A stretch of 64,000 bases of DNA from Pseudomonas sp. FP2335 (GTDB taxonomy: Bacteria; Pseudomonadota; Gammaproteobacteria; Pseudomonadales; Pseudomonadaceae), in NCBI RefSeq assembly GCF_030687535.1, contig NZ_CP117437.1, forward strand, positions 4,957,501 through 5,021,500, read 5' to 3'. The position numbers and the translations under genes are program-made. Below, in pieces: positions 2,477 through 28,034 of the stretch (position 1 is the stretch's first letter; each line of letters begins with the position of its first letter). The notes beneath the pieces were generated by a model. That model ran no database searches and was not told the origin of the DNA. It saw nothing but the letters and a program-made list of their open reading frames with translations.

Positions 2477-2761
2477 ATGACAATGAAAATACGCCTGCAA
2501 TGGTTCAACAAAACAACCGACAACTTGGAAGCAAGCGAACACTCAGCAGACTTTGAAGAAGAGGACAGCATCCTCAACGCGCTCGATTTAAACGAGGAGC
2601 CCCAGATATATGCAGGAGGGTTCGACGTACTACCTAGTTGGATAACGATTCTCCAGCCGTACTTCCAACACGTAATAGCGCCTGGCCTTTTCAACTACCA
2701 AATATCCTTCCGCTACCAAGGCGCCTGGCCACCACCCCCCAAGCAGCCCAAGACCCCATGA
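2477..2761 (+). CDS. Colicin E3-type (cloacin) immunity protein
   Basis: This 94-residue protein matches ImmE3 along most of its length. Recognisable parts are the N-terminal strand MKIRLQWFNKTT, the acidic stretch SADFEEEDSI, the core GGFDVLPSW, and LQPYFQHVI. Immunity proteins of this type bind the E3 nuclease domain tightly and block it in the producing cell. The gene starts 14 bases after the stop of the RNase domain. GGAG eight bases before the ATG at 2477 supports that start over the ATG at 2483. The tail is proline- and lysine-rich (PPPPKQPKTP), which ImmE3 lacks. The gene is intact although its toxin is frameshifted, so it may persist as orphan protection. Confidence 0.88.
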   Translation: MTMKIRLQWFNKTTDNLEASEHSADFEEEDSILNALDLNEEPQIYAGGFDVLPSWITILQPYFQHVIAPGLFNYQISFRYQGAWPPPPKQPKTP

Positions 2762-2769
2762 GGCCGACC

Positions 2770-2982
2770 ATGAAAAAGCCCCTCCTCTACCGCTCCGTCA
2801 ACACCCGTACTCATGGTGTGCGTCACGGCAGTTACTGCGCTTATCGGTACGAGCGAAACCCCAAATTCGATCAGCCCGCTATCACCCGCTTCACCGGGCC
2901 TCGAAAGCTCCCACAGATGATTGGCGGTGCAATCATTTCCCGAGCCTGGCACAGGTCAAAGTGTGGGAGCTGGCTTGCCTGA
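2770..2982 (+). pseudogene. Fragment of a small conserved protein, truncated into a REP element
   Basis: An ATG at 2770 with GAGG six bases upstream starts a 70-codon frame with LYRSVNTRTHGVRHG. From memory this resembles the N-terminus of longer uncharacterised proteins in Pseudomonas and Acinetobacter. After about 40 residues the similarity seems to stop, and the last codons are read from the REP sequence that begins at 2961. It is therefore more likely the stump of a gene cut off by rearrangement than a functional protein. It sits right behind the immunity gene, in the same decaying toxin region. Confidence 0.35.
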
Positions 2983-3054
2983 GAACGCGGGGGCTCAGCC
3001 AGCACTTATATCAGCTGACACGCCGTCTTTGCGGGCAAGCCCGCTCCCACAGGG
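2961..3054. repeat. REPIN with one degenerate arm
   Basis: Two REP palindromes in inverted orientation: GTGTGGGAGCTGGCTTGCC at the left and GGGCAAGCCCGCTCCCAC at the right. The left arm has diverged from the usual GGGAGCGGGCTTGC. The element fills the gap between the fragment at 2770 and the kinase gene end at 3068. Confidence 0.8.
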
Positions 3055-3067
3055 GATTAGTGCTGGG

Positions 3068-4411
3068 TCAGAATTCCAGGCGGGCACACAACCCACCCTG
3101 CTCCAAATTCCGCAACGCCAACCGACTGCCAATCTTGCCAACGATCATCTCCACAATCGCCAACCCCAACCCAGCGCCGTTGGCGTTCCCGCGGCTGTAG
3201 AACCGCTCGAACAATCGCCCTAATTCCGCCTCATCGATCCCCGGCCCCTGGTCCTCGACGCTCAGGCAATTGGCGCCAATCACCACCTTCACTTCGCTGC
3301 CGGCCGGCGAAAAATTCAGCGCATTGGTGACCAGGTTTTGCAATGCAATCGCCAGCGCGACAGGCTCGGTTTCCACCCAAACCTCTTCTTCGCCTTCCAG
3401 CACCAGTTCCACGCCTTTCTCCATGGCCAACGGCGTCAGTTCGGCCAGTTCTTCGCGCACCAACTCGGTCAGTTGCACACGGCTGCGCACCGGGTTATTC
3501 AGTTGCGGTTCGATGCGCGCCATGGTCAGCAGTTGGCTGCCGATGCGGGTGGCGCGGTCGACGCCATTGACCAGAAACTCCAGGGCTTCACGGCGTTGCT
3601 CCGGGGTTTCGGCGCCTTGCGCGTTTTGTGCGTGGATGCGCAGGATCGCCAGGGGCGTGCGCAGTTCGTGGGCGGCGTCGGCGATGAAGCGGCGCTCGCG
3701 CTCCAATAGCTCGTCCACCTGGACCAGCAACCGGTTCAGCGCGGTTTGCATGGGTTCCAGGTCGCTGGGCAGTGGCGCTAAATGCAGCGGTTGCAAGGTA
3801 TCGGTACTGCGTCCGCGAATCGACAGGGCCATGGCGCGCAGCGGTTTGAAGCCCCAACCGATAACCAGCCAGATCAACACCGCCAGCAGTGGTACACCGA
3901 TCAACGTAGGCCAGAGGGTGTGGCGCATGATGCGCTGGATCACGTCCTGGCGAATGTCGTCACGCTCGCCCACCCAGATCAACAGCCCTTGCTGCGGGTC
4001 GGCGAGGAGGAAGGCGCACCAGTCGTTGCCGTTGTCCATCAGGTCATGGGAGCCGAGGGTCGCAGGCGGTGCGGCCAACACCGGCGCTTCGGCGGAGCGC
4101 ACCAGCAGTTGGCCGTCGATGCGCCAGATCTGGAAGGTCAGGCGGGTTTCATAGGGATGGGCCACGCCCTCCTCACCCACGCGGCTCATGGCCTGGTCAA
4201 ACGCCTCGTACAAGCGCTGCCAGTCGGCTTCGCCGGGGTCGCGCTGGCGCAACACGCCTTGCAGCAGGCGCGCGCTTTGGGCGAGTTGGGCGTCGTAGAC
4301 TTCTTCGATTTCGTGGTGGCTGTCGCGCAGCACCAGCCAGCTGATCAACGCGTCGCCGAGCAGGATCAGCACCAGCACGGGGATGAGGATGCGCGCACGA
4401 ACCGAGGTCAT
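3068..4411 (-). CDS. Two-component sensor histidine kinase (TctE/QseC-like)
   Basis: A 447-residue membrane kinase. It has a first membrane helix (about 9-28), a periplasmic sensor domain of the 2CSK_N type (about 30-165, opening with HEIEEVYDAQLAQSARLL), a second helix (168-188), a HAMP-like linker, the phospho-acceptor His248 in ADAAHELRTPLA, and an ATPase domain with NLVTNALNFSP, DQGPGID and GAGLGLAIV. It should phosphorylate the response regulator encoded just upstream, whose stop overlaps this ATG by four bases (ATGA). The ligand is unknown. The pair faces a PepSY protein and a cytochrome b561, an arrangement common in pseudomonads, so it may monitor the envelope, metals or redox state (inference). 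Confidence 0.9.
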   Translation of the reverse strand: MTSVRARILIPVLVLILLGDALISWLVLRDSHHEIEEVYDAQLAQSARLLQGVLRQRDPGEADWQRLYEAFDQAMSRVGEEGVAHPYETRLTFQIWRIDGQLLVRSAEAPVLAAPPATLGSHDLMDNGNDWCAFLLADPQQGLLIWVGERDDIRQDVIQRIMRHTLWPTLIGVPLLAVLIWLVIGWGFKPLRAMALSIRGRSTDTLQPLHLAPLPSDLEPMQTALNRLLVQVDELLERERRFIADAAHELRTPLAILRIHAQNAQGAETPEQRREALEFLVNGVDRATRIGSQLLTMARIEPQLNNPVRSRVQLTELVREELAELTPLAMEKGVELVLEGEEEVWVETEPVALAIALQNLVTNALNFSPAGSEVKVVIGANCLSVEDQGPGIDEAELGRLFERFYSRGNANGAGLGLAIVEMIVGKIGSRLALRNLEQGGLCARLEF

Positions 4412-8000: not shown

Positions 8001-10025
8001 ATGATGAGTGCGTTGCAATCACGCCGCCTGCGCTACGGCGTAGGCGCGATCGGCTTGGTGTTTGTGTTGCTGGCGGCGTTGCGGCTGGTGTTTGTGCTGG
8101 GTTTTTCCGGCCTGCCGTTAAACACTCCGCAGTTACTGGAAACCCTCGGCATCGGCCTGCGTTTCGACCTGCGCCTGGCGGTGTTGCTGCTACTGCCGCT
8201 GGCGGTGCTGGCGTGGTTGCCGCGCTGGAACCTCATCACCCTGCCCGCCCTGCGCTGGCTCGCGCGCGGTTATCTGGTGATGGCCCTGGCCGCGGTCGGC
8301 CTGGTCTACATCATCGACTTCGGCCACTACGCCTACCTGGGTGTACGTATCAACGCAACCGTGTTGCGCTACCTGCAAGACGCGCAGATTTCACAACAGA
8401 TGGTGTGGGAAACCTACCCCGTGCTGTGGATAACTGCCTGCTGGCTGGCCGCCGTGGCGCTGTGGGTATGGGCGCTGGTGTGCCTGGAACGCCTGACCCT
8501 GGAGCGTCCAGCCCAGCAGATGGGCAAATGGGCAGTGGCGTCAGTCTCGGTGATCGGCGTGGTCGCCGTACTCTTGGCCCTACTCGGTCGCGTCGCCAAT
8601 CTCAACCTGGAAAACCCGGTGCCCCTGCGCTGGAGCGATGCGTTCTTTTCCGGCAACAGCCAAGTCGCCGCCGTGGGCCTGAACCCGGTGCTGTTTTTGT
8701 ACGACACCTTCAAGGTCGGGCAGTCGCAATTCGATGAAAAAAAGGTGCGCGAACACTATTCGCAAATCGCCGATTACCTGGGGGTCGATCAGCCCGACAC
8801 CCAGCAACTGAATTTCATCCGCGAACAAGGCGTGCAGCCCTATCGACTGGCCGGCAAGCGCCCGCCCAATGTGGTGTTCGTGATGCTTGAATCCCTCGGC
8901 ACCAGTGCTGTCGGCGCCTACGGCAACCCGCTGAACCCCACGCCGCACCTCGACAAGCTGGCCACGCAGAGCTGGTTCTTCAAACACTTCTACGTACCTG
9001 TCACCGGCACCGCCAAGACCGTGTGGGCCAGCATCAGCGGCGTGCCGGACGTGACCCGCCAGGAGACCGCCACGCGCAACCCGCTGATCACCCGGCAACA
9101 CACGTTGATCAATGCGTTCGCGGGTTACCAGAAGTTCTACATGATCGGCGGCAATGCCGGCTGGGCGAATATCAACGCCCTGATCCGCCAAAGCATCGAC
9201 GGCGTGCAGCTCTATGACGAAAGCCACTGGCGCTCGCCACGGGTGGATGTGTGGGGCATTTCCGACCTGGACCTGTTCAAGGAAAGCGACCAACTGCTGC
9301 GCGCCGTACCGGAGGCACAACCGTTCTTCGCCTACCTGCAAACTTCCGGCAACCATCGGCCATTCACCATCCCCAAACACAACGATGGGTTCCAGGTCGC
9401 CGAGGTGACTCTGGAGCAAGTCCAGGCCGCCGGGTCGCGCAGCGTCGAGCAATACAACGCGGTGCGCCTGCTGGACTACAACATCGGCCGCCTGATGGAG
9501 ATCGCCAAGGCCGGCGGCTGGTACGACAACAGCATCTTTGTGTTCTTCGGCGACCACAACACGCGCATCAGCCAGATCCCACACATGGCGCCGGCCTTCG
9601 AACAGCTCGGTTTGGAGAGCAATAACGTGCCGCTGCTGATCCACGCCCCTGGCCTGGCGCCACGGGTGATCGAAGACGCGGTGGGGCTGGCGGACCTGTT
9701 GCCGACCGTGGCGGGTATGGCGGGCATGCCGTTTCGCAATGGTGCCCTGGGCCGCGACATCCAGCAGCCGGCGCCCGAAGGCGAACGCGTGGTGCCGCTG
9801 GTGTTGCGTGAAGGCAGCTTCCCGATTATCGGCGGCGTAACCCAACATTTCCTGTTGCAGATGCAGCACGACGGCAGCTCACCGACCCTGCATGACCTGG
9901 CCTCACAAACCCCGCGAGACGACGTGGCCGCGCAGCATCCGCAGGAATTCCAGCGCTTGCAGGGGCTCACGCGCGGGCTGCATGAGAGTGCGCGGTGGAT
10001 GCTGTTCCGGAATGTGCGCGAGTGA
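8001..10025 (+). CDS. LTA synthase-like membrane sulfatase/phosphoglycerol transferase
   Basis: A 674-residue protein with about five N-terminal membrane helices (to about residue 200) and a large periplasmic sulfatase-superfamily domain. Key parts are NVVFVMLESLGTSAVG (metal-binding Glu), the Thr nucleophile region in PVTGTAKTVWAS, SGNHRPFTIP, and IFVFFGDHN, with the metal-binding Asp-His near the end. The family (LtaS, OpgB/MdoB, PetA-like enzymes) moves phosphoglycerol or phosphoethanolamine from phospholipid to an acceptor glycan. The gene lies behind the sialidase-fold and membrane genes, with a REPIN between. The start is either 8001 or 8004 (ATGATG), and the GAGAGAG upstream fits the second better. 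Confidence 0.85.
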   Translation: MMSALQSRRLRYGVGAIGLVFVLLAALRLVFVLGFSGLPLNTPQLLETLGIGLRFDLRLAVLLLLPLAVLAWLPRWNLITLPALRWLARGYLVMALAAVGLVYIIDFGHYAYLGVRINATVLRYLQDAQISQQMVWETYPVLWITACWLAAVALWVWALVCLERLTLERPAQQMGKWAVASVSVIGVVAVLLALLGRVANLNLENPVPLRWSDAFFSGNSQVAAVGLNPVLFLYDTFKVGQSQFDEKKVREHYSQIADYLGVDQPDTQQLNFIREQGVQPYRLAGKRPPNVVFVMLESLGTSAVGAYGNPLNPTPHLDKLATQSWFFKHFYVPVTGTAKTVWASISGVPDVTRQETATRNPLITRQHTLINAFAGYQKFYMIGGNAGWANINALIRQSIDGVQLYDESHWRSPRVDVWGISDLDLFKESDQLLRAVPEAQPFFAYLQTSGNHRPFTIPKHNDGFQVAEVTLEQVQAAGSRSVEQYNAVRLLDYNIGRLMEIAKAGGWYDNSIFVFFGDHNTRISQIPHMAPAFEQLGLESNNVPLLIHAPGLAPRVIEDAVGLADLLPTVAGMAGMPFRNGALGRDIQQPAPEGERVVPLVLREGSFPIIGGVTQHFLLQMQHDGSSPTLHDLASQTPRDDVAAQHPQEFQRLQGLTRGLHESARWMLFRNVRE

Positions 10026-11113: not shown

Positions 11114-11479
11114 ATGGCTCAGCCATCGATTTTAGTGTTGGAAGACGACGAGATCATTCGCTCGTTAATGGTGGATGTGCTAGAGGAATTCGGGGCGCTG
11201 GTGACGTCGTTTCCTTCGGCGGATGAAGGAATGATTTACCTGGAACGAGGCGACGAACCGGTGGACCTGATTGTCAGTGATGTTCAGATGCCGGGGTTGC
11301 TCAATGGCTATGACTTGAGCCGGGTGGTGGCCCACCGCTGGCCGAACGTGCCGGTGCTGCTGACGTCCGGTAATACCAAACTGGCGGCGCAATTGGGGGG
11401 CTCGGTGCGTTTTTTGCCCAAACCATGGAGCACTGAACACCTGCTGGAGTCGGTGCAAACCGCACTGACCGGGCACTGA
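11114..11479 (+). CDS. Stand-alone CheY-like response regulator
   Basis: A 121-residue single receiver domain: EDDEII acidic pocket, phospho-acceptor Asp in VDLIVSDVQMPGLLNGYDL, conserved Ser/Thr in VLLTSGN, Lys in FLPKPW. No output domain is present. I chose the ATG at 11114, with GGAG/AAGGA upstream, over in-frame codons further upstream. It lies 210 bases before bphO-bphP in the same direction, so it is a good candidate phosphorelay partner for the bacteriophytochrome (inference from position). Confidence 0.85.
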   Translation: MAQPSILVLEDDEIIRSLMVDVLEEFGALVTSFPSADEGMIYLERGDEPVDLIVSDVQMPGLLNGYDLSRVVAHRWPNVPVLLTSGNTKLAAQLGGSVRFLPKPWSTEHLLESVQTALTGH

Positions 11480-11689
11480 TCGTCCGTGCACTGATAGCTT
11501 CACGACATTACTTAAACCGAACTTCGCGGCAAATAGTGCAGTCATTAATGAGGCATGGAGCGACTTTTCTGATCCGCTGGTCAGCCTATTCGCCTTGTGC
11601 GGACAGTTATCGGCTCTGAGGTGTGTAGAATCGTCGCCCATTTCCACGCGTCATTCATGGCCGACAGGCCCACAGTTCGAGCTAGCTGA

Positions 11690-12304
11690 ATGCACTCAAA
11701 GGCCCATGACGTTGGTCCGCCCACCTTGCTGGAAGCGTTGCGCACAGGCACTGCCCAGCTGCACGTAGCGCTGGAACAGCGCCTGCCGTTTTTCTCTGAA
11801 CGCCTGGAAGCCCATTGGTATGGGCGCTTGCTCCAGGCGTACTACGGCTTTTATCGGCCTATCGAAGCCTCACTGTATGACAACGCCTTGATTCCTGAAG
11901 GCTTCGACTCGGCAATGCGTCTGAAAACACCGACGCTGGTGGACGACCTGCACGCGCTGGGCCTGGACAACCTCGCCATCGACGCCCTCCCCCGCTGCGC
12001 CGAACTCCCGGTCTGCGATACCGCCGCCGCCTGTCTAGGCGCCTTGTATGTGCTCGAAGGCGCAACCTTGGGCGGCCAGGTACTGCGCCGGGAAATGGCC
12101 CAGCGCCTGGGCCTGGATGCCGACAACGGTGGCGCGTTTCTCAATGTGTACGGCGCCGAGACCGGTCGACGCTGGAAGGATTTCCTCGATTACCTGGGCC
12201 GCCTGCCACTGGACGCTGACGCCAAACAGCGCGCGGTGGATGCAGCCCGTTCGACATTCAGCTGCTTTGAGCAATGGCTCGACAGCCAGGAGGTACTGCT
12301 ATGA
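11690..12304 (+). CDS. bphO: Biliverdin-producing heme oxygenase BphO
   Basis: A 204-residue bacterial heme oxygenase. It opens heme to biliverdin, iron and CO, and supplies the chromophore for the phytochrome. The proximal heme histidine is in TAQLHVALEQRLPF, and the distal helix region with the conserved glycines is YVLEGATLGGQVL. The stop overlaps the ATG of bphP (ATGA), so chromophore synthesis and apoprotein are made together. The start at 11690 has only a weak GAG upstream. Confidence 0.92.
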   Translation: MHSKAHDVGPPTLLEALRTGTAQLHVALEQRLPFFSERLEAHWYGRLLQAYYGFYRPIEASLYDNALIPEGFDSAMRLKTPTLVDDLHALGLDNLAIDALPRCAELPVCDTAAACLGALYVLEGATLGGQVLRREMAQRLGLDADNGGAFLNVYGAETGRRWKDFLDYLGRLPLDADAKQRAVDAARSTFSCFEQWLDSQEVLL

Positions 12305-14544
12305 AACCCGACGATTTTGAAAAGCTGCTTGCCAACTGTGCCGACGAGCCCATTCGTTTCCCGGGGGCGATCCAGCCCCACGGCGTGCTGCTGACCTTGT
12401 CCGAACCGGGCCTGGAAATCATCCAGGTCAGCGCCAACATCGGCACTTTGTTCGGCCATGCGCCCGAGGCGCTGCTGGGCCAGCCGCTGCACACGCTGAT
12501 TGGCAGCGAGCAAGCCCAGGCTGTTGCAGCCATGGCCGCAAACAACACGTTTTTCGATGCGCCACCGCTGCACGTCACGTTCAACGGTGCGGAATTCGAG
12601 GGCTTGTTGCATCGCCATCAGAACGTGTTGGTGCTGGAGTTCGAACCGCTGCTCAGGGATTTCCACCCACGGGCGCTGAACGGTCGCACCAGTGACCTGG
12701 GCAAGATGCTGCAGCGTTTGCAGTCGGCGAAAACCCTGCAGGCGCTGTACGAAATCAGCGTGAATGAAATTCAGGCCATGACCGGTTACGACCGTGTGCT
12801 GATCTACCGTTTCGAAGAAGAAGGCCATGGCCAGGTCATCGCCGAAGCATCAGCGCCGTCCATGGAGCTTTTCAACGGGTTGTTCTTCCCCGCGTCCGAC
12901 ATCCCAGAGCAGGCCCGTGAGCTGTATCGCACCAACTGGCTACGCATCATCCCGAACGCAGCCTACGAACCCGTGCCACTGCTGCCCAAGCTGCGCCCGG
13001 ACACCGGCCAACCGCTGGATCTGAGCTTCGCCACCCTGCGCAGCGTGTCGCCGATTCACTGCCAATACATGCAGAACATGGGTGTGTTGTCGTCCATGAG
13101 CATCTCGCTGATGAAGGGCGACAAGCTCTGGGGCCTGATCAGTTGCGGCAACCGCGCGCCGCTGCTGGTGCCGAACGACCTGCGCACCGCCTGCCAGACC
13201 ATCGGCCAGGTGCTGTCGTTGCAGATCAGCGCCATGGAAGCCCTCGACCTGAACCGCCAACGCGAAGAAAAGGTCGAGGCCCTGGCCCTGCTGGATCAAG
13301 CGATGAAGGCGTCCCACGAAAACGTCTTCGACGGCCTGGCCCAGCAAGCCCAGGTGCTGATGAACCTGACCCTGTCCGGCGGCGTGGCGATCATCGAAGA
13401 CAAGCAACTGCACCGCTACGGCAATTGCCCGGAACCGGGGCAGATCCGTGCGCTGCACAAGTGGCTGCAACAAGGCGGCGAGCCGGTGTTTTCCAGCCAC
13501 AACCTGGCCTCGGTGTACCCACCGGCCGTCGACTTCCAACAAGTCGCCAGCGGCGTGTTGGCCATGAGCCTGCCCAAGCCGGTGGACAACGGCGTGCTGT
13601 GGTTCCGCCCGGAAGTGAAAGAGAACATCAATTGGAGTGGCGACCCGAAAAAGCCGCTGGCCCTGGAAAACTCCGACGCAGGCCTGCGCCTTCGCCCACG
13701 CACCTCGTTTGAAATCTGGAAAGTGGAAATGGCCGGCATCTCCACCAAATGGAGCCATGGCGACCGCTTCGCCGCCAACGACCTGCGCCGGTCCGCCCTG
13801 GAAAACGACCTGGCGCGCCAGGTGCTGCGCGAGCAACAAGCGGTGCGCGCACGTGATGAACTGGTGGCGGTGGTGTCCCACGACCTGCGCAACCCGATGA
13901 CTGTCATCTCGATGCTCTGCGGCATGATGCAAAAGGCCTTCAGCTCCGATGGCCCACACACCTCGCGGCGGATTTCCTCGGCCATCGACACCATGCAACA
14001 GGCCGCCGGGCGCATGAACGTGTTGCTGGAGGACCTGCTCGACACCTCTAAAATCGAGGCCGGGCGTTATGTGGTCAAGCCGGTGTCGCTGGACGTCAGC
14101 CAGATCTTTGAGGAGGCCTATTCGCTGCTGGCGCCGCTGGCGATGGAGAAAGGCATCGACCTGTCGTTCAATGCCGAGCCCGGCCTGCAGATCAATGCGG
14201 ACCCGGAGCGCCTGTTCCAGGTGCTGTCGAACCTGATCGGCAATGCCATCAAGTTCACCCCGCGCCAGGGCAATATCGGTATCAGCGCCATGAGCAACGG
14301 TGAAGAGATCGTGTTTTCGGTACGTGACAGCGGTGAAGGCATTGCGCCGGAGCAACTGCCCCACGTGTTTGATCGCTATTGGACAAAGACTGAAAACAAT
14401 CCCACCGGCAGCGGGCTGGGGCTGTACATCACCCAAGGCATCATCCAGGCCCACGGCGGCAAAATTGTTGCTGAAAGCGAGGTGGGGCGTGGCAGCGAGT
14501 TCCGCTTTACGGTGCCCAAGGTACTTGGCGATTCGCATACCTGA
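12301..14544 (+). CDS. bphP: Bacteriophytochrome histidine kinase BphP
   Basis: A 747-residue red/far-red photoreceptor with PAS-GAF-PHY-HisKA-HATPase order. Cys13 in LLANCADEPI is the biliverdin-attachment residue expected near the N-terminus, and FPGAIQPHG follows. The GAF domain carries PASDIP at 197-202 and the SPIHCQYMQNMGV chromophore-pocket motif. The PHY tongue region is near 420-480. The kinase has His527 in VVSHDLRNPM, and the ATP domain has NLIGNAIKFTP and GSGLGLYIT. Light state sets kinase activity towards a receiver protein, plausibly the CheY-like one upstream. I place the start at the ATG inside the bphO stop. Confidence 0.95.
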   Translation: MKPDDFEKLLANCADEPIRFPGAIQPHGVLLTLSEPGLEIIQVSANIGTLFGHAPEALLGQPLHTLIGSEQAQAVAAMAANNTFFDAPPLHVTFNGAEFEGLLHRHQNVLVLEFEPLLRDFHPRALNGRTSDLGKMLQRLQSAKTLQALYEISVNEIQAMTGYDRVLIYRFEEEGHGQVIAEASAPSMELFNGLFFPASDIPEQARELYRTNWLRIIPNAAYEPVPLLPKLRPDTGQPLDLSFATLRSVSPIHCQYMQNMGVLSSMSISLMKGDKLWGLISCGNRAPLLVPNDLRTACQTIGQVLSLQISAMEALDLNRQREEKVEALALLDQAMKASHENVFDGLAQQAQVLMNLTLSGGVAIIEDKQLHRYGNCPEPGQIRALHKWLQQGGEPVFSSHNLASVYPPAVDFQQVASGVLAMSLPKPVDNGVLWFRPEVKENINWSGDPKKPLALENSDAGLRLRPRTSFEIWKVEMAGISTKWSHGDRFAANDLRRSALENDLARQVLREQQAVRARDELVAVVSHDLRNPMTVISMLCGMMQKAFSSDGPHTSRRISSAIDTMQQAAGRMNVLLEDLLDTSKIEAGRYVVKPVSLDVSQIFEEAYSLLAPLAMEKGIDLSFNAEPGLQINADPERLFQVLSNLIGNAIKFTPRQGNIGISAMSNGEEIVFSVRDSGEGIAPEQLPHVFDRYWTKTENNPTGSGLGLYITQGIIQAHGGKIVAESEVGRGSEFRFTVPKVLGDSHT

Positions 14545-20949: not shown

Positions 20950-21054
20950 TTGCGTCACCTCTGAGCGGGTCGCCCCTCCGAACTGCTGTCAAAGTGCTAT
21001 ACCGTTGTTCTCAGCAGAGAACTCCAGGGTCACATTTTGCGCAGTCATCCCCAT

Positions 21055-21486
21055 ATGGAACCGGAGCGGGCCTTGAATACGGGTGCCCTGACGGCCCGCG
21101 AACAAGCGGTATTGCGATTGATCAGCATGGGCATGGATTGCCAGGCGGTAGCCCTGCACCTGGCCATCAGCCCACTGACCGCGCGTAAACACCGCAGCAA
21201 TATCCTGGCGAAAACCGGGCTCAAGTCTGCGGTTCAACTCGCCACCTTTGCCGTCGAATGGGAATTCCACCCCGGCCGTCGGCGGCTGGCCCTTGCACCA
21301 CCGTTGACACGCCGTGAACGGGAAATTGCCGAATACATCGCCGCCGGGCAAACCAGCAAGCAAATTGCAAAAAACCTCGGCATCAGTGACCTCACCGTGC
21401 GCAAACACCGGGAAAACCTCTACCGTAAACTCGGCATCCAGCGCATGGCGCAACTGGTCCTCTACTGCCTGCAACACCCGCTCTAG
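21055..21486 (+). CDS. Regulator with two tandem LuxR-type HTH domains
   Basis: A 143-residue protein made of two GerE-type DNA-binding domains and nothing else. The first is LTAREQAVLRLISMGMDCQ...SPLTARKHRSNILAKTGL. The second is LTRREREIAEYIAAGQTSKQIAKNLGISDLTVRK. About 20 residues link them. No receiver or ligand domain exists. Such a two-headed layout suggests binding of paired half-sites without a signal-receiving part, or a domain duplication in a small regulator. It lies 171 bases before a kinase/regulator pair in the same direction. The start is the ATG at 21055, and a TTG at 21037 is also in frame. Confidence 0.8.
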   Translation: MEPERALNTGALTAREQAVLRLISMGMDCQAVALHLAISPLTARKHRSNILAKTGLKSAVQLATFAVEWEFHPGRRRLALAPPLTRREREIAEYIAAGQTSKQIAKNLGISDLTVRKHRENLYRKLGIQRMAQLVLYCLQHPL

Positions 21487-21657
21487 ACTGCCATGCCCGC
21501 GTAAAACCTACGCCATCGGCAGTATTGCGCTGCACGCGGCTGGACTCCAATGTTGTGATTCATCCCCCTTTGCAAGGAACATCGGGCAAGTGACACAGCA
21601 ACCTTCAGCACCGCCCTTTTTGTGACGCACTATCCCGATCTATCACGGAGACAAGGA

Positions 21658-22383
21658 ATGTCACGTCAAAAAACCCTGCGTGCCGGGCCACAGACCTTTG
21701 CCCCGCACGCCTCGCCAGCAACGCCTGTGCTTGAACTGTCGCCGCTTGAACAAGAGCGCCGACGCATTTCCCACGAACTGCACGACCAACCGCTGCAAAC
21801 CCTGGCATGGGCGCAACTGCGCCTGGCGGAGTTGAATCGCCACGAGGGCAGCGCCCATATCCGACCGATGATCGAGGACATACGGCGCCTGATTCGTGAC
21901 GTGAGCCAACAACTGCGCCAAGTGATCGACGGCCTGGTGCGCCCCCCCGCGGGCGGCTTGCGCCTGGATGATGCGCTGCGTACCAGCGTGCGCGAAATGC
22001 ACCAGCGTTTCACCGGTTCGCCATCGATTCTGCTCAACCTTCAGGGGCCACGCCTGCCGCTTGCGCCACCGCTGATGGCCGCCGTGTTGCGTGCCGTCCA
22101 GGAGTTGCTGGCCAACCTGCGCAAACACAGCGAGGCGAGCCAGGCGTTCCTGAGTTCTTCGTGCCTTCAGCGCTGCGTTGAAGTGGTGCTGGCCGATTGT
22201 GGCCGTGGCTTTGACCCGACGCTGATAGACCCCTCCCGCGGCTTGGCGAGCATCCGCCAACGCCTGGAAGCGGTCGGTGCCAGGCTAATGATCGACTCGC
22301 GCCCTGGCTTTGGCACATGCGCCCGTGTGGTGATCCCAGTGGCCCCAGCACATCACCGGCGTTTCAGGGTACCTGCGCCGTGA
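21658..22383 (+). CDS. Soluble NarL-type sensor histidine kinase
   Basis: A 241-residue kinase without membrane helices. It has a HisKA_3 dimerisation domain with the phospho-acceptor His in RRRISHELHDQPLQTL and an ATPase domain with RAVQELLANLRKHSEA, LADCGRGFD and GLASIRQRLEAVGA. A sensory domain is absent apart from about 40 N-terminal residues, so the signal must come through a partner protein. GGAG eight bases before the ATG at 21658 sets the start. The next gene overlaps its stop (GTGA). Confidence 0.87.
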   Translation: MSRQKTLRAGPQTFAPHASPATPVLELSPLEQERRRISHELHDQPLQTLAWAQLRLAELNRHEGSAHIRPMIEDIRRLIRDVSQQLRQVIDGLVRPPAGGLRLDDALRTSVREMHQRFTGSPSILLNLQGPRLPLAPPLMAAVLRAVQELLANLRKHSEASQAFLSSSCLQRCVEVVLADCGRGFDPTLIDPSRGLASIRQRLEAVGARLMIDSRPGFGTCARVVIPVAPAHHRRFRVPAP

Positions 22384-23024
22384 GCGGCGCCCCATTGCGG
22401 GTGCTGCTGGTTGACGATCACCAACTGTTTCGCCAGGGCCTGGCCGCCTTGCTCGCCGCCGAGGCGGACATGCACGTTGTCGGCCAGGCAGAAAATGGCC
22501 TGCAGGCGTTGGCGCAGATTGACCTGCTGCGCCCCGAGTTGGTGGTGCTGGATATGGAGATGCCGCTGCTCAACGGTATCGACACGTTGCTTCGCGCCCG
22601 CCAGGCCTACCCCGCGGCACGTTGTCTGTGCGTTTCCGCCCATGGTGAACTGCGCAAGATTGCCCTGGCGCTGGAGTCGGGGGCCTGCGGTTACCTGCTC
22701 AAGGACTGCGCCGCCGAAGAACTGCTCAAGGCCTTGCGCAGTGTGGCCGGCGGGCGCATCTACCTGTCACCGGAGGTGGCCACCGAGATGGTCGCCCATC
22801 AACACCCCAGCCAACGCACCGGGGTCGCTGGAGCCCCCTTGAGCCCGCGCGAAAAACAGATCCTGCAGTTGCTGGTGGAAGGCTGCACCACGCGGGTGAT
22901 TGCCGAACGCATGCACATCAGCAGCAAGACCGTGAGCACCCACCGCGAGCACATCATGAGCAAGCTCAACGTCAAAGGCATCGCCCAACTGACCCGTTAT
23001 GCGCTACGCGAAGGCCTGGTCTGA
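22380..23024 (+). CDS. NarL/FixJ-family response regulator (GTG start)
   Basis: A 214-residue regulator: receiver with VDDHQLF, phospho-acceptor Asp in LVVLDMEMPLLNG, Lys in YLLKDCAAEE, then a LuxR-type HTH (LSPREKQILQLLVEG, SSKTVSTHREHIMSKL). The GTG at 22380 overlaps the kinase stop, which shows that the two are one unit. About 200 bases further lies the gene for the first of the unknown paired proteins, which is therefore the most likely target (inference). Confidence 0.9.
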   Translation: MSGAPLRVLLVDDHQLFRQGLAALLAAEADMHVVGQAENGLQALAQIDLLRPELVVLDMEMPLLNGIDTLLRARQAYPAARCLCVSAHGELRKIALALESGACGYLLKDCAAEELLKALRSVAGGRIYLSPEVATEMVAHQHPSQRTGVAGAPLSPREKQILQLLVEGCTTRVIAERMHISSKTVSTHREHIMSKLNVKGIAQLTRYALREGLV

Positions 23025-23227
23025 CGGCGAGCATCGGTACTTGTACCGATCCGAAAATCAGCATTGCGGAACACGTAAATCAGCATCCGGCACAGTGCCT
23101 CGAACGCCCGCGATGACGAATATGGCCTCCGGCTATCAGTGCCCTTCACCTTTTGCATTGATGGCCTTCGGAGACCGCGGCGGTTGCCCGGTGCTCGGTT
23201 TACTCAACCGATTTGGAGCTTAATGTC

Positions 23228-24586
23228 ATGGCTAACGTTGATACGCTGGACCTGTGGGCAAAATGGATGGGGGCTGTACAAAATCAAGCATTGAGCGGTG
23301 GGCTGGGCGGCGGTCAGCGCTTCAGCGCAGGTTCCACCACGCTGAACGTCGACCTGGGCAACGTCGACCCGACGATCGTCAATTACTACATCCACGGCCT
23401 GGGCGATGTGGTGCCCGCCAACAGCCCGTCGTACTCGCCGGCCGGCGGCCTGCTGACCAGCTACGCGGTGTTTCTGGATTGCATCGACCTGGGCGCGATC
23501 CCCAACCCGAACCTGGCCAGCCAGGTGAACCTTGCCACGTCGGCGTTGAACACCGCGCAAACCGCGTTCAACAACGTCACCACCCAGGCGATCCAGCAGT
23601 ACGTCAACTACAAAGCCATCAACTCTCCACCGTTTGTGCCGTTCTCGACGTGGGTCGTACAAAGCTACCCAAGCTACGTCACCGCCAACAACAACCTGAT
23701 TGGCGCCGCCAATGCCCTCGATTCGTTGATGGTGCAGGCGTATGGCGCCGGGTATGTGCCGTTGCAGCAAGCACGCAGCAAGGTCGGGATCAACGGTGCG
23801 CAGAGCCTCACCGCGCAAAACCCGTTCAACATGGCCGTGACCTCCGGGTCGATCGCAGCGCCGGGTTCACAGCCGGTGGTCGTCGGTGGCACCACTCCAC
23901 CACCGGCCAGTGCGTTGGTATCGTCCTTTGCTCCGTCCTACACCCTGCAAGGATTTTCCACCGCGTATGCAGCCTGGCAAGCCGCTAGCGTCGCCGGGCA
24001 GGTCGGGGCCTCGATCTCGGTCAGCTCCAGCACCGCCAGTTACAGTTTCAGCCAATCCGGCTGGAGTGCTTCGGCGAATGCCAGCCTGTTCGGTGATTTT
24101 TTCAACTTCACCGCCAGCGGTTCCGCCAGTGGCCAGAAAACCAGCATCGACACCTCAAGCAGCGACTTCTCGCTGACCGTCGACTTCACTGGTCTGGGCA
24201 GCTTTATCATCGCTCCGGGCGCCTGGTGGGATAACGGTTCACTGGTGAACACCTTCCAGAACAAACTCAAACCGGGCTCGCCGGCCTTCTTCGGCGAAAA
24301 CGGCTCCCTGGCGGCCGTGCCGACGCAACTGGTGGTCGGCTTTGAGCCAACGGTGAAACTGAAAATGAAGGCCAGCGACTACAGCAACGTGAAAAGCAGC
24401 TGGCAATCCCAGGCCACCGCGTCCATCGGCATCGGCCCGTTCCGCATCGGGTCGGCGACCACGTCCGCCTATGGCAGCAAACAAGACATCCGTTGGGATG
24501 ACGCCTCGGCCACCGTGACCATCGGTCCGATCCACAGCAGCCTGCCGATTCTGTTGGGTGTGGTCAGCCAACAACTGGGCCAGTGA
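23228..24586 (+). CDS. Unknown protein A, first of a related pair
   Basis: This 452-residue protein belongs to no family I recognise. It has no signal peptide and no membrane helix. The first half is rich in Ala, Asn, Pro and Ser. A Ser-rich central part (SASGSASGQKTSIDTSSSD) precedes a C-terminal region with SFIIAPGAWWDNGSL, VVGFEPTVKLKMKASDYSN, IGPFRIGSATTS and, at the end, LPILLGVVSQ. The same order of motifs recurs in the next protein, so the two are distant paralogues. GGAGC nine bases before the ATG at 23228 supports that start. The gene follows the NarL-type two-component pair after 203 bases. Function unknown. Confidence 0.8.
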   Translation: MANVDTLDLWAKWMGAVQNQALSGGLGGGQRFSAGSTTLNVDLGNVDPTIVNYYIHGLGDVVPANSPSYSPAGGLLTSYAVFLDCIDLGAIPNPNLASQVNLATSALNTAQTAFNNVTTQAIQQYVNYKAINSPPFVPFSTWVVQSYPSYVTANNNLIGAANALDSLMVQAYGAGYVPLQQARSKVGINGAQSLTAQNPFNMAVTSGSIAAPGSQPVVVGGTTPPPASALVSSFAPSYTLQGFSTAYAAWQAASVAGQVGASISVSSSTASYSFSQSGWSASANASLFGDFFNFTASGSASGQKTSIDTSSSDFSLTVDFTGLGSFIIAPGAWWDNGSLVNTFQNKLKPGSPAFFGENGSLAAVPTQLVVGFEPTVKLKMKASDYSNVKSSWQSQATASIGIGPFRIGSATTSAYGSKQDIRWDDASATVTIGPIHSSLPILLGVVSQQLGQ

Positions 24587-24593
24587 CAGCCCG

Positions 24594-24618
24594 GCCGGGG
24601 GCCTTCGCGGCTCCCGGC
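24594..24618 (+). other. Strong intercistronic hairpin between the paired unknown genes
   Basis: GCCGGGGGCC (24594-24603) pairs with GGCTCCCGGC (24609-24618) around a five-base loop, with one G-U pair. No T run follows, so it is not a standard terminator. It could set the ratio of the two proteins by processing or partial termination. Confidence 0.6.
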
Positions 24619-24641
24619 TTCATGGCACAGGAGCATCGCGC

Positions 24642-25715
24642 GTGGCAGACCCAACGCTTTGGCAGCTATACGACCAAACCTTGGCCAACCTGGCCCAAGT
24701 AGCACCCGGCGAAGTGTTTTCGATTACCGCGCTCAACACCTACACCGACCTGGGTAGCCCGATTCCGGCCATATGCAACGCCAGCATCTACCAGCTGGGC
24801 AATGGCATTCCCGTGCCCACGGGGACTTATTCGATCCACAGCGGTGTGTTCACCGCTTACTGGATTTACCTCAGCTACTTGCTGGAAGCCGCACAACCGG
24901 CATCTCTGGCGAACGTAAACGCCAGCCCGGTCGACTTTGATCGGTATCGGCAACTGGTGAGCACCTCGACGCCGCCCAATCCCTTGCAGGCCCAACAACT
25001 GAACAGCACACCGCTGTCCCAGACCCATCAACACCTGATGGCAACGCTGGGGCCGAGCGTCCCCGAGATTTGCGCGGCACTCAATCAATGCTGGCTGGCC
25101 ATGCAGCCGGAGAAGGTCGCGACCAACATGTGGGTGCAACTGGCGGCGGGCGCTCCTCAGTACCTGTATCCCGGCTATGCCCTGGAAAACTGGAGCGCCA
25201 CGTTTGCACAGTGGCAAGCACGCGTTGCACCCGTGGCAGTGCTCGATGCCGTCAGCGTCAACGTGCCGGAAAGCGCGCCTGCCTTTATCCAAGTGGATAC
25301 GGCCAGCCTCGCCGCCCTGGAAGACACCACGACGCTGAGCTTGAGCGTGTCGATGCAGGCCTTCGGCACCTTCAGCCTGAGCCCCGCCGCGTGGCTCGCC
25401 CCGAGCTTCTTCGACGCCACCCGTTACCCATTGCCCGCTGGCGCACCGCCCTTTCTGGCGCTCGACGGCCCGCTTGGCCTGCTGCCGCTCAAGGCAGTGC
25501 TGGGCTTTCGCCCGTGCCTGAAACTGCGCGCCAGCACCCTGCAATCGGCCCAGCAATTGGCCAGCAATGTGAGCCGCATCGGCCCGTTCTCGGTGCAGGC
25601 CGGCGCGGTGACGAGCGCGGGCTCGGACCAGTTCGATATTGAGCTTGATTCCACCGACATCGACATACCGGTGTTGCTCGGGGTGATCAGCATCCCGAGC
25701 GCCACGGGTCATTAA
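24642..25715 (+). CDS. Unknown protein B, second of a related pair (GTG start)
   Basis: A 357-residue protein related to protein A through its C-terminal half: TFSLSPAAWLAPSFF corresponds to SFIIAPGAWWDNGSL, AVLGFRPCLKLRAS to VVGFEPTVKLKMKAS, RIGPFSVQAGAVTSAGSDQ to GIGPFRIGSATTSAYGSKQ, and IPVLLGVISI to LPILLGVVSQ. It lacks the Ser-rich middle and has no signal peptide. The start is a GTG at 24642 with AGGAG seven bases upstream. It lies 55 bases after protein A, so the two are co-transcribed. The two may form a hetero-oligomer (inference). Confidence 0.8.
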   Translation: MADPTLWQLYDQTLANLAQVAPGEVFSITALNTYTDLGSPIPAICNASIYQLGNGIPVPTGTYSIHSGVFTAYWIYLSYLLEAAQPASLANVNASPVDFDRYRQLVSTSTPPNPLQAQQLNSTPLSQTHQHLMATLGPSVPEICAALNQCWLAMQPEKVATNMWVQLAAGAPQYLYPGYALENWSATFAQWQARVAPVAVLDAVSVNVPESAPAFIQVDTASLAALEDTTTLSLSVSMQAFGTFSLSPAAWLAPSFFDATRYPLPAGAPPFLALDGPLGLLPLKAVLGFRPCLKLRASTLQSAQQLASNVSRIGPFSVQAGAVTSAGSDQFDIELDSTDIDIPVLLGVISIPSATGH

Positions 25716-25751
25716 GCGTTGTACCGCCATCCACTCAGGGAGAACCCAACC

Positions 25752-25967
25752 ATGGCCAGCTATTGCCAGGAAAAATTCACGAAAGACGGAACCATGACCG
25801 AACTGAAAGTCTGCTGGCGCCAGGACAAGCACGTCCATGACGCGACGCTGATCACCACCATCGCCATCTGGCTGGGCACCACCCAGGGCGGCACGTGGAC
25901 GGTGCGGGCCAACAGTTATGAAAGCAACAAGCAAAGCTGCTCGGTGGGAGCGGTCACCTACCCCTAG
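25752..25967 (+). CDS. 71-residue unknown protein ending the paired-protein operon
   Basis: This small protein has three cysteines (SYCQEKF, KVCWRQD, KQSCSVG) and alternating polar/hydrophobic stretches (DATLITTIAIWLGTT, GTWTVRANSYES), which suggest a small beta-sandwich. I do not recognise a family. GGGAG about ten bases before the ATG and the 36-base gap after protein B place it in the same operon. A strong terminator follows after 10 bases. It may be a partner or chaperone of proteins A and B. Confidence 0.7.
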   Translation: MASYCQEKFTKDGTMTELKVCWRQDKHVHDATLITTIAIWLGTTQGGTWTVRANSYESNKQSCSVGAVTYP

Positions 25968-25977
25968 GCGCCTGCGC

Positions 25978-26002
25978 GGGGAGCCCGGCGGCTCCCCGTT
26001 TT
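25978..26002 (+). terminator. Terminator of the unknown-protein operon
   Basis: GGGGAGCC (25978-25985), loop CGGC, GGCTCCCC (25990-25997), then GTTTT. It lies between convergent genes and defines the end of the operon on the plus strand. Confidence 0.85.
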
Positions 26003-26009
26003 CAGCCCA

Positions 26010-28034
26010 TCAATAACGTGCATCGGCGGGCTTGCCGCCATTGGGCCAATCCTTGACCTTGTCCGGGAAGTCCGGGCGCGGTTGCCCCGAGAAAAACGCC
26101 GCGACATCCACTGCGTCCTGGTCGGACAAACCACCCTGCCCTAGCGGAAATTTCTCGTGAAAGCCTATTGGCATGTTGCGTTTGACGAATGCCGCCGCCG
26201 TATAGGTGCGGGCCATGCCGGCGCCGATATTGAACGATTGCTCGCCCCACAGCGGCGGGTAGATCAGTTCGCCGTCGGCGCGCGCCAGGCCCTGGCCGTT
26301 GTCACCATGGCACACCGCACATTGCTTGGCGTAGACCGCTTGACCATTGAGCAGGTCCGGCTTGATCGCCGGGTCGACCTTGCCCACGCCGCGCCCGGCG
26401 ACTTTGTCTGCGGGGCCGGTGTTGTTTTTCATCCAGTCGAAGTAGGCGACCATCGCTTGCATATCTGCCGATTGCGGCGGCAACGGCTTGCCGTTCATCG
26501 AGCGACGGAAACAGCCGTTGATGCGTTCTTCCAGGCTCACCACCTTGCCCGCACGCGGCGCGTAGCTGGGGAAGAATGCCGACACGCCGACAAAGGGCGA
26601 ACCGTCCGCCACGGTACCGGCGTTGAGATGGCAACTGGTGCAATTGAGCGAGTTGCCGACGTTGTCCGGCAACAATGCCTTGGTTTGCAGATGCAGGCGC
26701 ATGCCGCGCACCACTTGGTCGGCGTTGGGCGCGGCGAGCAGATCGGCCAGGCGCGGGGTTTCAAATGCCGTTGAATCGGTGGTCACCGGGTTGAGCTGGT
26801 CACGCAGCGTTTTGACCTGCGCCGCGCTGATGGGCGTGCCCCCATTGCCCCAGCTCGTGCGCACAAAGCTGAGGATCTCGGCGATTTCCTGATCGGCCAG
26901 GCGGGCGAAACCGGGCATGGTGTAGACCCGTGGGTGAGCGGCCGTTTGCGCGGTTTCCCAACCCGTCAGGGTGATGTGCAGCAGTGACGTCGGGTTGCTG
27001 GAGGCAGTGCCCGGATTGCCCGCCAGCGGCGGGAACAGGCCTTTGACACCGGCGCCGTCGCTGCGATGGCAGTCGCTGCAGAACTGCATGTAACCCAGGC
27101 CGCCACGGCTGGTGAACAGATCCGTCGGCGGCGCAGCGGGTGCCTGGGCCACGGACGGCATTGGCAAATCGTCTTTGCCCGGTGGCAGGGACTTGAGGTA
27201 GCGGGCGATGGCCGTGAGGTCGTCATCGCTGAAATGCTGGGTGCTGTGGTGGATCACATCGGCCATGTTGCCGGCGACCGTGGCGAAGCGGTTTTGCCCG
27301 GTCTTGAGCAATTGCACGGTGTCTTCCACGGTCCACAGGTTGCGCAGGCTCAGGGCGCGCCAATGCTCTACGGTTTCGCCAGCCAGGTAATGCTGGCCAC
27401 TGCGGCCTTCATCACTCAGGGCTTTTTCCTGGAAGGCGATGCCACGCGGCGTGTGGCAGGAACCGCAATGGCCCAGGCCCTGGACGAGGTAGGCGCCGCG
27501 GTTGAGCTGTGCATCCCGCGCCGGGTCCGGCTGGAAGGGCCGCTTGTCGAGAAAGGCGAAATTCCACAGCGCCAGGCCCCAGCGCTGGTTGAACGGGAAA
27601 CCCATGTCGGCTTCACGGTTGGCTTGCTGCACAGGCGCTACGTCTTGCATCAGGTAGGCGTACAAGGCGCGCATATCGTCTTCGCTCATCTTGGCGTAGG
27701 ACGGATATGGCATCGCCGGGTACAGGTTCATACCGCTGGGCGTGACACCTTCGCGCATGACCCGGTCGAATTGCTCGTAGGTGTAGTTGCCGATGCCGGT
27801 GTCACGGTCGGGCGTGATATTGCTGGAAAAGATCGTGCCCATCGGCGTGCTCAGCTCCAGCCCGCCCGCCATCACTTGGCCTTGCTTGGCAGTGTGGCAA
27901 GCGATGCAGTCGCCCAGTTGCGCGACGTACTTGCCATGCTCGATCAGTGGGGTGTCGGGGGCGCTGGCGTGCAGGGGAAGCGCCACGCTCAGCGTCGCCC
28001 CCAGCATGGCCAGGCGTGCAAGAGAAAGCGCCAT
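26010..28034 (-). CDS. Pentaheme c-type cytochrome: dehydrogenase triheme module fused to TsdA-like diheme module
   Basis: A 674-residue exported protein with a signal peptide to about residue 24. Five CXXCH sites are visible: CIACH (43), CGSCH (about 189), CSDCH (about 320), CTSCH (about 464) and CAVCH (about 572). Residues 1-420 match the triheme cytochrome subunit of membrane alcohol or gluconate dehydrogenases (GKYVAQLGDCIACHT, GLGHCGSCHTPRG). Residues 430-670 match the thiosulfate dehydrogenase TsdA/SoxA-like diheme type (NCTSCHLNAGT, LEERINGCFRRSMNGKPLP, CAVCHGDNGQGL). No dehydrogenase flavin or PQQ subunit is adjacent. It may pass electrons from a sulfur compound or an unlinked dehydrogenase to oxidases. 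AAGGAC lies before the ATG. Confidence 0.85.
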   Translation of the reverse strand: MALSLARLAMLGATLSVALPLHASAPDTPLIEHGKYVAQLGDCIACHTAKQGQVMAGGLELSTPMGTIFSSNITPDRDTGIGNYTYEQFDRVMREGVTPSGMNLYPAMPYPSYAKMSEDDMRALYAYLMQDVAPVQQANREADMGFPFNQRWGLALWNFAFLDKRPFQPDPARDAQLNRGAYLVQGLGHCGSCHTPRGIAFQEKALSDEGRSGQHYLAGETVEHWRALSLRNLWTVEDTVQLLKTGQNRFATVAGNMADVIHHSTQHFSDDDLTAIARYLKSLPPGKDDLPMPSVAQAPAAPPTDLFTSRGGLGYMQFCSDCHRSDGAGVKGLFPPLAGNPGTASSNPTSLLHITLTGWETAQTAAHPRVYTMPGFARLADQEIAEILSFVRTSWGNGGTPISAAQVKTLRDQLNPVTTDSTAFETPRLADLLAAPNADQVVRGMRLHLQTKALLPDNVGNSLNCTSCHLNAGTVADGSPFVGVSAFFPSYAPRAGKVVSLEERINGCFRRSMNGKPLPPQSADMQAMVAYFDWMKNNTGPADKVAGRGVGKVDPAIKPDLLNGQAVYAKQCAVCHGDNGQGLARADGELIYPPLWGEQSFNIGAGMARTYTAAAFVKRNMPIGFHEKFPLGQGGLSDQDAVDVAAFFSGQPRPDFPDKVKDWPNGGKPADARY

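Follow-up and report, generated by a model that had tools for sequence, protein, structure and literature searches.

We analysed a window of 64,000 nucleotides of the Pseudomonas sp. FP2335 genome (the whole stretch of DNA under study), in which six genes on the + strand between positions 21055 and 25967 encode a tandem-GerE regulator, a histidine kinase, a response regulator and three further proteins, herein designated A, B and C (Table 1). An earlier interpretation based on the letters alone (the sequence-only reading) had described A and B as proteins of no known family that, with the small partner C, lie behind a tandem helix-turn-helix (HTH) regulator and a soluble NarL-type pair. All six genes were found where it had placed them, the three regulator genes precede A on the same strand, and the nature of the regulators was confirmed by their Pfam domains and by the lack of a transmembrane (TM)-like segment in the kinase.

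The sequence-only reading had stated that A, B and C are co-transcribed; joint transcription is suggested by their spacing only. The strong terminator expected behind C is present as a hairpin followed by UUUU, although it escaped the consensus scan, which requires 5 T in 8. A second RNA hairpin, located in the A–B gap, might determine in what ratio A and B are made. Substitution rates were lower at nonsynonymous (dN) than at synonymous (dS) sites for A and B in comparison with loci L005 and L006, and for C in comparison with L005, L008 and L012; locus L004 differs so little from the window that it is no independent case and holds too few changes for dN/dS.

Together with their control regions, the six genes form an insertion. 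Its neighbours in the window, both named by eye, are an aminotransferase-like gene, which ends at 20949, and a gene resembling those of multihaem cytochromes, the stop of which is at 26010–26012. At locus L060 (genome G004), where the insertion is absent, the two flanking genes overlap by 7 bp, and their proteins are 89% and 88% identical to those of the window. This empty site was seen in one of the nine relatives fetched besides the window locus; in the other eight, the 1.5 kb examined contained no gene of the cytochrome-like kind.

Table 1. Positions of the cassette genes and associated features in the window (MFE, minimum free energy)
Feature	Position	Strand	Description
Whole insertion	20950..26009	.	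5,060 bp; six genes and control regions; absent in L060
Tandem LuxR/GerE HTH regulator	21055..21486	+	143 aa, ATG start; no receiver domain; Pfam GerE twice, E 2e-32
Soluble histidine kinase of UhpB/NarX kind	21622..22383	+	253 aa, GTG start; HisKA_3 E 1.5e-9, HATPase_c E 7.7e-6
NarL-type response regulator	22380..23024	+	214 aa, GTG start overlapping the kinase stop; Response_reg E 1.8e-24, GerE E 4.2e-21
Perfect palindrome ATCGGTAC-TT-GTACCGAT	23033..23050	.	ATCGGTA-N4-TACCGAT at one place in the genome
Operator-like direct repeat AATCAG-N16-AATCAG	23056..23083	+	Half-sites 22 bp apart (start to start); A begins 172 bp downstream
Protein A	23228..24586	+	452 aa; proposed pore-inserting subunit
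Helical-hairpin (coiled-coil) insert of A	23507..23785	+	Residues 94–186; helices 94–131, 139–146 and 148–186 in the model
Proposed hairpin 1 of A	24002..24169	+	Residues 259–314; S/T/A-rich, aromatic tip; low model confidence at 281–300
Proposed hairpin 2 of A	24380..24523	+	Residues 385–432; invariant G403-P404 columns
RNA hairpin between A and B	24593..24619	+	11-bp stem, no U tract; MFE −27.5 kcal/mol, z −2.65
Protein B	24642..25715	+	357 aa, GTG start; A paralogue; proposed docking/platform subunit
Protein C	25752..25967	+	71 aa, 3 Cys; small third gene
Intrinsic-terminator-like hairpin	25976..26002	+	10-bp stem and UUUU; MFE −26.3 kcal/mol, z −2.64

Paralogy, linkage and spread of A and B

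By sequence comparison, A and B are paralogues along their whole length. BLASTP aligned their C-terminal parts (E 8e-14) and N-terminal parts (E 7e-7) collinearly, and when 16 A-type proteins were compared with 14 B-type ones by hhalign, the probability was 99.8 (E 1.3e-29) over 375 columns, indicating that the ordered motifs previously noticed in both proteins reflect homology, not chance. AlphaFold models were obtained for A (predicted local distance difference test, pLDDT, 84.1; predicted template modelling score, pTM, 0.82) and B (pLDDT 82.5, pTM 0.83). The main difference between the two proteins is the helical-hairpin insert of A: the helices of B are shorter in this region, and BLASTP aligns only the parts that flank it. 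Judged by hydropathy alone, neither protein has a hydrophobic N-terminus or a TM-like segment, consistent with the proposed absence of a signal peptide.

A scan of genome contigs, with gene presence scored by tblastn, blastp and frame reading, detected 16 loci: six of Pseudomonas and three of Cupriavidus (L004–L012), and others from Gemmatimonadetes, Woodsholea, Rubrivivax, Pseudoduganella, Janthinobacterium, Methylotenera and Lewinella. A B-type gene lies directly behind A in 14 of the 16 (the exceptions are L013 and L014), so that the linkage on which the sequence-only reading depended holds in other genomes. The response regulator is present in nine loci, the kinase in eight and C in seven; B of L007, which spans two frames, was scored as present, and L055 was left out of all counts. 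Two related proteins in tandem were also found in five distant loci (L057, L076, L082, L083 and L085; E 6.8e-79 to 0.001, the weakest pair being that of L083). A single relative was seen at L039, L040, L056, L079, L080, L081 and L084, most of which were examined over about 1.5 kb per side. For A, 63 proteins are among the matches listed, A included, and nearly all of the named ones are called 'hypothetical protein'.

In whole-genome samples, each counted with its centre genome, relatives occurred in 7 of 398 genomes of the window genus and in 1 of 398 across the phylum (the FP2335 genome itself). The corresponding counts were 5 of 392 for the taxonomic family to which L017 belongs, 2 of 376 for the L014 class and 8 of 380 for the L019 phylum. 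Plasmid matches numbered 5 among 72,556 records, three of them on Cupriavidus megaplasmids. The layout, found in some soil bacteria, is old and rare and its distribution patchy, which is the pattern that horizontal transfer would leave. On a conjugative IncFII plasmid of Klebsiella michiganensis, a lone distant A relative is followed by a TRL-family gene (L039, 7128–8928).

Regulators and the direct repeat upstream of A

The kinase and response regulator have the make-up of a NarL-type two-component system, a HisKA_3 kinase with a receiver–GerE regulator, as in NarX/NarL and UhpB/UhpA. They differ from these systems in that the kinase lacks a membrane segment (highest 19-residue Kyte–Doolittle mean, 1.26), a receiver-less tandem-GerE protein accompanies the pair and there is one operator-like site. 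The kinase matched the UhpB model with E 3.7e-17, under the cut-off of that model. Neither the kinase nor the tandem-HTH protein has a close second copy in the genome: the next match to the kinase had E 5.3e-15 and 29% identity, and the sole other match to the tandem-HTH protein at E ≤ 1e-8 was the cassette response regulator. A kinase-like stretch with one internal TAA is located beyond the window in the same genome (G000:C1:5420164-5420781). Identity of the response regulator ranges from 64 to 99% across L004–L012. At L079, a Bacteroidota A relative adjoins open reading frames (ORFs) read by eye as histidine-kinase-like and receiver–LuxR-type (268–1053 and 2998–3681), possibly an independent link of the A family to such regulators.

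Whereas the window and L004 have the tandem-HTH gene in a single frame, it is split in most relatives. Both HTH halves lie near A in 10 of the 16 loci, although in L015 they are 3.7 kb from it. In eight of these ten (L005–L009, L012, L015 and L016), and also in L023, the second HTH is in the +1 frame with a frame overlap of 29–245 nt; in L017, the halves are parted by an in-frame stop. The overlap contains an in-frame TTT followed by C, which permits a +1 slip from TTT to TTC, in eight of the nine +1-split loci; these loci share descent, and TTT accounts for 59 of 217 Phe codons in the sampled response regulator, A and B genes. No ATG, GTG or TTG precedes the HTH match in the second frame of L006 and L016, whereas the other seven have one. 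From these sequences, the split regulator may be either two overlapping genes or the product of programmed +1 frameshifting.

When the sequences ahead of A in the window and in seven loci were aligned, the direct repeat stood out as a conserved spot amid diverged DNA. Its 22-bp spacing corresponds to about two helical turns. The exact AATCAG-N16-AATCAG occurs once in the 6.06-Mb genome, and the reversed-pattern control does not occur. In the 16-locus set, AATCAG-N16-AWTCAG was found upstream of A in all nine loci with the response regulator and in none of the seven without it. The same pattern was present in L041, which has the whole gene set, and in L020, L021, L022, L024 and L025, some of which are of the same species as L005, L006 and L011; L023, with a response regulator of 49% identity, has ATTCAG-N17-AATCAG in its place. 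The simplest reading of this co-occurrence is that the cassette response regulator binds the AATCAG pair as its one target. The control of A, B and C looks dedicated, as had been proposed, given that the operator-like repeat occurs once in the genome.

The palindrome ends 5 bp ahead of the direct repeat and is kept solely in some Pseudomonas loci. It was considered as a site for the tandem-HTH protein, and this is unproven, since the gene occurs without the palindrome in L006–L009 and L012, and the palindrome without the gene in L010/L011.

Family searches and relation to known pore formers

The proposal that A and B belong to no known family stands as far as these searches reached: neither they nor C attained the cut-off of a Pfam or NCBIfam model, PHROGs and PADLOC gave no row for any of the three, and profile and structure searches placed neither A nor B in a family of settled function. 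Among 42 A-type and 22 B-type relatives, Pfam gave just single-member rows of E 0.005 or weaker; those with E 0.005–0.1 were regarded as chance, except for the Thiol_cytolys_C row of protein P0062 (see below). The single weak Pfam row of C, Virul_Fac at E 0.038, scored 12.6 bits where the cut-off is 28.1 and was likewise taken as chance. Profiles of A, B and C had no sequence match in the PDB; A alone gave proteasome rows at chance level, and B alone gave none. No convincing match was found among viral structures, no match among 50,697 phage records, and no relative among 19 pattern stretches from viral contigs. In the literature on R-bodies, gasdermins, insecticidal proteins and proteins like the cholesterol-dependent cytolysins (CDCs), with subscription papers mostly outside the coverage, there was no account of the A/B family.

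The lack of an export signal, the paired subunits with a small partner, the helical-hairpin insert of A and the insignificance of the structure matches would also suit a non-pore assembly, such as a filament, shell or storage inclusion resembling an R-body in spirit, with the hairpin as assembly element. We regard such an assembly as distinctly improbable, as no known assembly family appeared in the Pfam and NCBIfam rows, and neither the repeated appearance of gasdermins among the structure matches nor the fusion to a CDC domain-4-like tail, both described below, would be expected of it. An R-body as such had been suggested by the small cytoplasmic proteins and LuxR-type regulators; A, B and C gave no Reb row in Pfam or NCBIfam, libraries whose inclusion of a Reb model is unchecked, and the regulator terms looked for were absent from the accessible text of an R-body paper (PMC13430693).

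In gasdermin systems, an activating protease is encoded alongside the gasdermin. The top structure matches of B were bacterial gasdermins (PDB 7n50, 7n51, 7n52 and 9a84), whole-length but weak; the matches of both A and B were below significance, and the VIA list of A was occupied by coiled coils and is uninformative for the rest of A. Like bacterial gasdermins, B has no secretion signal. With A also lacking such a signal by hydropathy, these best fold matches could point to a gasdermin-like pore formed by A/B on the producer's own membrane, resulting in cell death, defence or lysis that releases a product; a trypsin-like-motif gene behind the lone A of L014 and lysozyme-type folds beside some members (GH25 in L014, Rv2525c-like in L016) would agree with this. 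We nevertheless consider a self-directed pore unlikely. PADLOC had zero matches for A, B and C, Pfam detected no activating protease among the six cassette genes, and the first 10 residues of A (beginning MANVDTL) and B (beginning VADPTLW) contain no Cys. Phages, moreover, are not usually sensed through a kinase–regulator pair, and bacterial gasdermins are not known to come as two paralogues. As described in the accessible text of PMC10999458, a gasdermin is one protein that bears an inhibitory tail and is palmitoylated on an N-terminal Cys (Cys3–Cys7 in bacterial and fungal ones), whereas the cassette encodes two paralogues with neither N-terminal Cys nor protease and has its own transcription circuit. 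The gasdermin model PF04598 matched neither A nor B and, at E ≤ 1, nothing in three genomes with relatives; the MACPF model PF01823 had no match in A, B or relatives.

CDC domain 4 is a membrane-binding module of pore formers. A connection to this module was provided by P0062, the first 397 residues of which are B-type, with 41% identity to the second gene of L017. Its tail matched CDC domain 4 (PF17440, Thiol_cytolys_C; E 5.3e-4, 20.5 bits, cut-off 23), and all seven PDB sequences matched by the tail at E ≤ 10 were CDCs: the best had E 0.0067 over residues 6–96, and the others had E 0.13–1.4, five of them spanning about 27 residues. P0062 is the sole carrier of such a tail among the 115 proteins fetched, and Pfam found no domain-4-like match in A or B of the window.

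CDC-like (CDCL) pairs of Bacteroidota, as described in the accessible text of PMC11952106 and PMC11169675, are adjacent paralogues of patchy distribution, in which the long subunit bears a fourth, C-terminal domain (PMC11952106) and acts as a membrane platform that recruits the short one (PMC11169675). A and B resemble CDCL-L and CDCL-S in being adjacent paralogues with a patchy distribution; one CDCL type published in these sources is similarly unequal in size (about 365 and 500 aa, compared with 452 and 357 aa for A and B), and where the CDCL long subunit has domain 4, here it is the B-type P0062 that has a domain-4-like tail. However, the Pfam model Thiol_cytolysin PF01289 (gathering score 25 bits), by which CDCLs are recognized in the accessible text of PMC11169675, was absent in A and B at E ≤ 1 and in the 42 and 22 relatives at E ≤ 0.1, and hydropathy revealed no hydrophobic N-terminus that could belong to a lipoprotein (SpII) signal; both features define CDCL pairs in that text. 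Further differences from CDCLs are the larger gene coming first, the dedicated kinase/regulator set, the single operator-like site and the occurrence of the loci mostly in Pseudomonas and Burkholderiales. By the printed criteria, A and B are not CDCLs, and by Pfam they are neither gasdermins nor MACPF proteins. The insecticidal protein PIP-47Aa of Pseudomonas mosselii, a single protein of 295 aa purified from cell pellets (accessible text of PMC5787824), is set beside A and B by description only, sharing with them a Pseudomonas origin and the absence of a Pfam match.

MACPF/CDC and gasdermin protomers carry two membrane hairpins on a twisted core sheet (accessible text of PMC11952106). In A, two S/T/G/A-rich stretches adjoin the long strands 315–330 and 363–379. 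The beta-moment is mostly raised at 259–324, with a dip at 271–276, and at 367–402; it is 0.31–0.45 at 385–402 and near average at 403–432. An aromatic doublet in the first stretch was found in 36 of 39 A-type but 3 of 20 B-type proteins; these counts cover 39 of 42 and 20 of 22 proteins, omit P0061–P0063 and use segments located by a simple motif, which were placed wrongly in P0017 at least. By analogy, the two stretches of A may be equivalent to the membrane hairpins of MACPF/CDC proteins and gasdermins.

The third gene slot and a proposed mechanism

Protein C has the predicted 71 residues and three cysteines in the window; the cysteines vary among relatives and hence are not invariant. The slot behind B is variable. 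In Cupriavidus, an additional gene of 85–87 aa lies ahead of C; in L016, an 89-aa gene is accompanied by a gene with an Rv2525c-like glycoside hydrolase (GH) fold (Pfam), and L017 is similar by eye; in L018, there are two different small ORFs. In L081, a lone A relative is followed by a 141-aa gene and then by a C58-type papain-fold peptidase, two genes behind the A relative (2543–3052; Peptidase_C58, 26 bits, cut-off 23). No relationship was detected between C and the small third-slot proteins of L057, L008 and L017 (hhalign), or between the small proteins of L008 and L017 (BLASTP). At L009 (12776–13289), two diverged C copies in tandem precede a 705-aa ORF without Pfam match. The lone A of Woodsholea (L014) lies between a divergent GH25 lysozyme-like gene (9117–9863) and a gene with trypsin-like motifs (11440–12483); these motifs were read by eye, and its Nal1_C match was weak and below cut-off. 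Proteins in the third slot may serve as cargo, as helpers or for protection.

The enzyme-like neighbours in L016 and L081, in conjunction with the beta-rich C-terminal half of the A and B models, raise the alternative that A and B are binding proteins of the surface or matrix, serving to display partner enzymes (the GH-like protein, for example), with no pore. This seems very unlikely to us, considering that A and B have no signal peptide by hydropathy, that the window cassette itself is enzyme-free and that CDC domain 4 belongs to pore formers.

We propose instead, as the probable though by no means certain interpretation, that the product of the cassette is a membrane-pore former of two components, under the control of a signal and belonging to an undescribed family, which works like CDCL, MACPF and gasdermin proteins. 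The pore is suggested by the amphipathic S/T/G/A-rich stretches, the domain-4-like tail of P0062, the CDCL-like plan and the weak gasdermin-like fold. The sequence-only reading had suggested a multi-subunit pore, shell or toxin-like complex; the paralogous pair and apparently dedicated control are in agreement with it, and the evidence leans to a pore former, with a single A–B–C assembly, or a pore, remaining putative. In the proposed mechanism, a signal would activate the soluble histidine kinase, which would phosphorylate the NarL-type response regulator; the latter, acting on the paired AATCAG sites with the tandem-HTH protein as co-regulator, would turn on A–B–C. A and B, which carry no Sec signal, would then build up in soluble form, to be released by lysis or another route, or to act inside the cell. 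B would dock on the target membrane and recruit copies of A, each inserting two amphipathic beta-hairpins to form a beta-barrel pore; this division of labour is drawn by analogy with the CDCL plan, in which the long subunit is the platform that recruits the short one. C, or the other small proteins and enzymes in other lineages, could be an accessory, protective or cargo protein.

A wider view, which we hold to be speculative and rather doubtful, is that the loci represent a new class of horizontally moved, multi-part systems for pore formation or delivery that spans phyla, with inserting and docking paralogues, a swappable last gene, a sensor, a regulator that in many lineages may arise by +1 frameshifting, and a single operator. 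The last-slot module, be it C, a 70–90-aa protein, the GH-like protein or the papain-fold peptidase, would in the same view be carried by, protect against or help the pore.

If the proposed two-component pore former is correct, it would be a second lineage of such bacterial systems alongside the CDCLs, spanning Pseudomonas, Cupriavidus, Janthinobacterium relatives and Bacteroidota, and would help to place the bacterial origin of the MACPF/CDC/gasdermin fold. Because the private kinase–regulator–operator circuit has one genomic site, induction is directly testable. Were the pore reading to fail, a two-subunit system that is conserved, unnamed and under the control of a private circuit would still be left.

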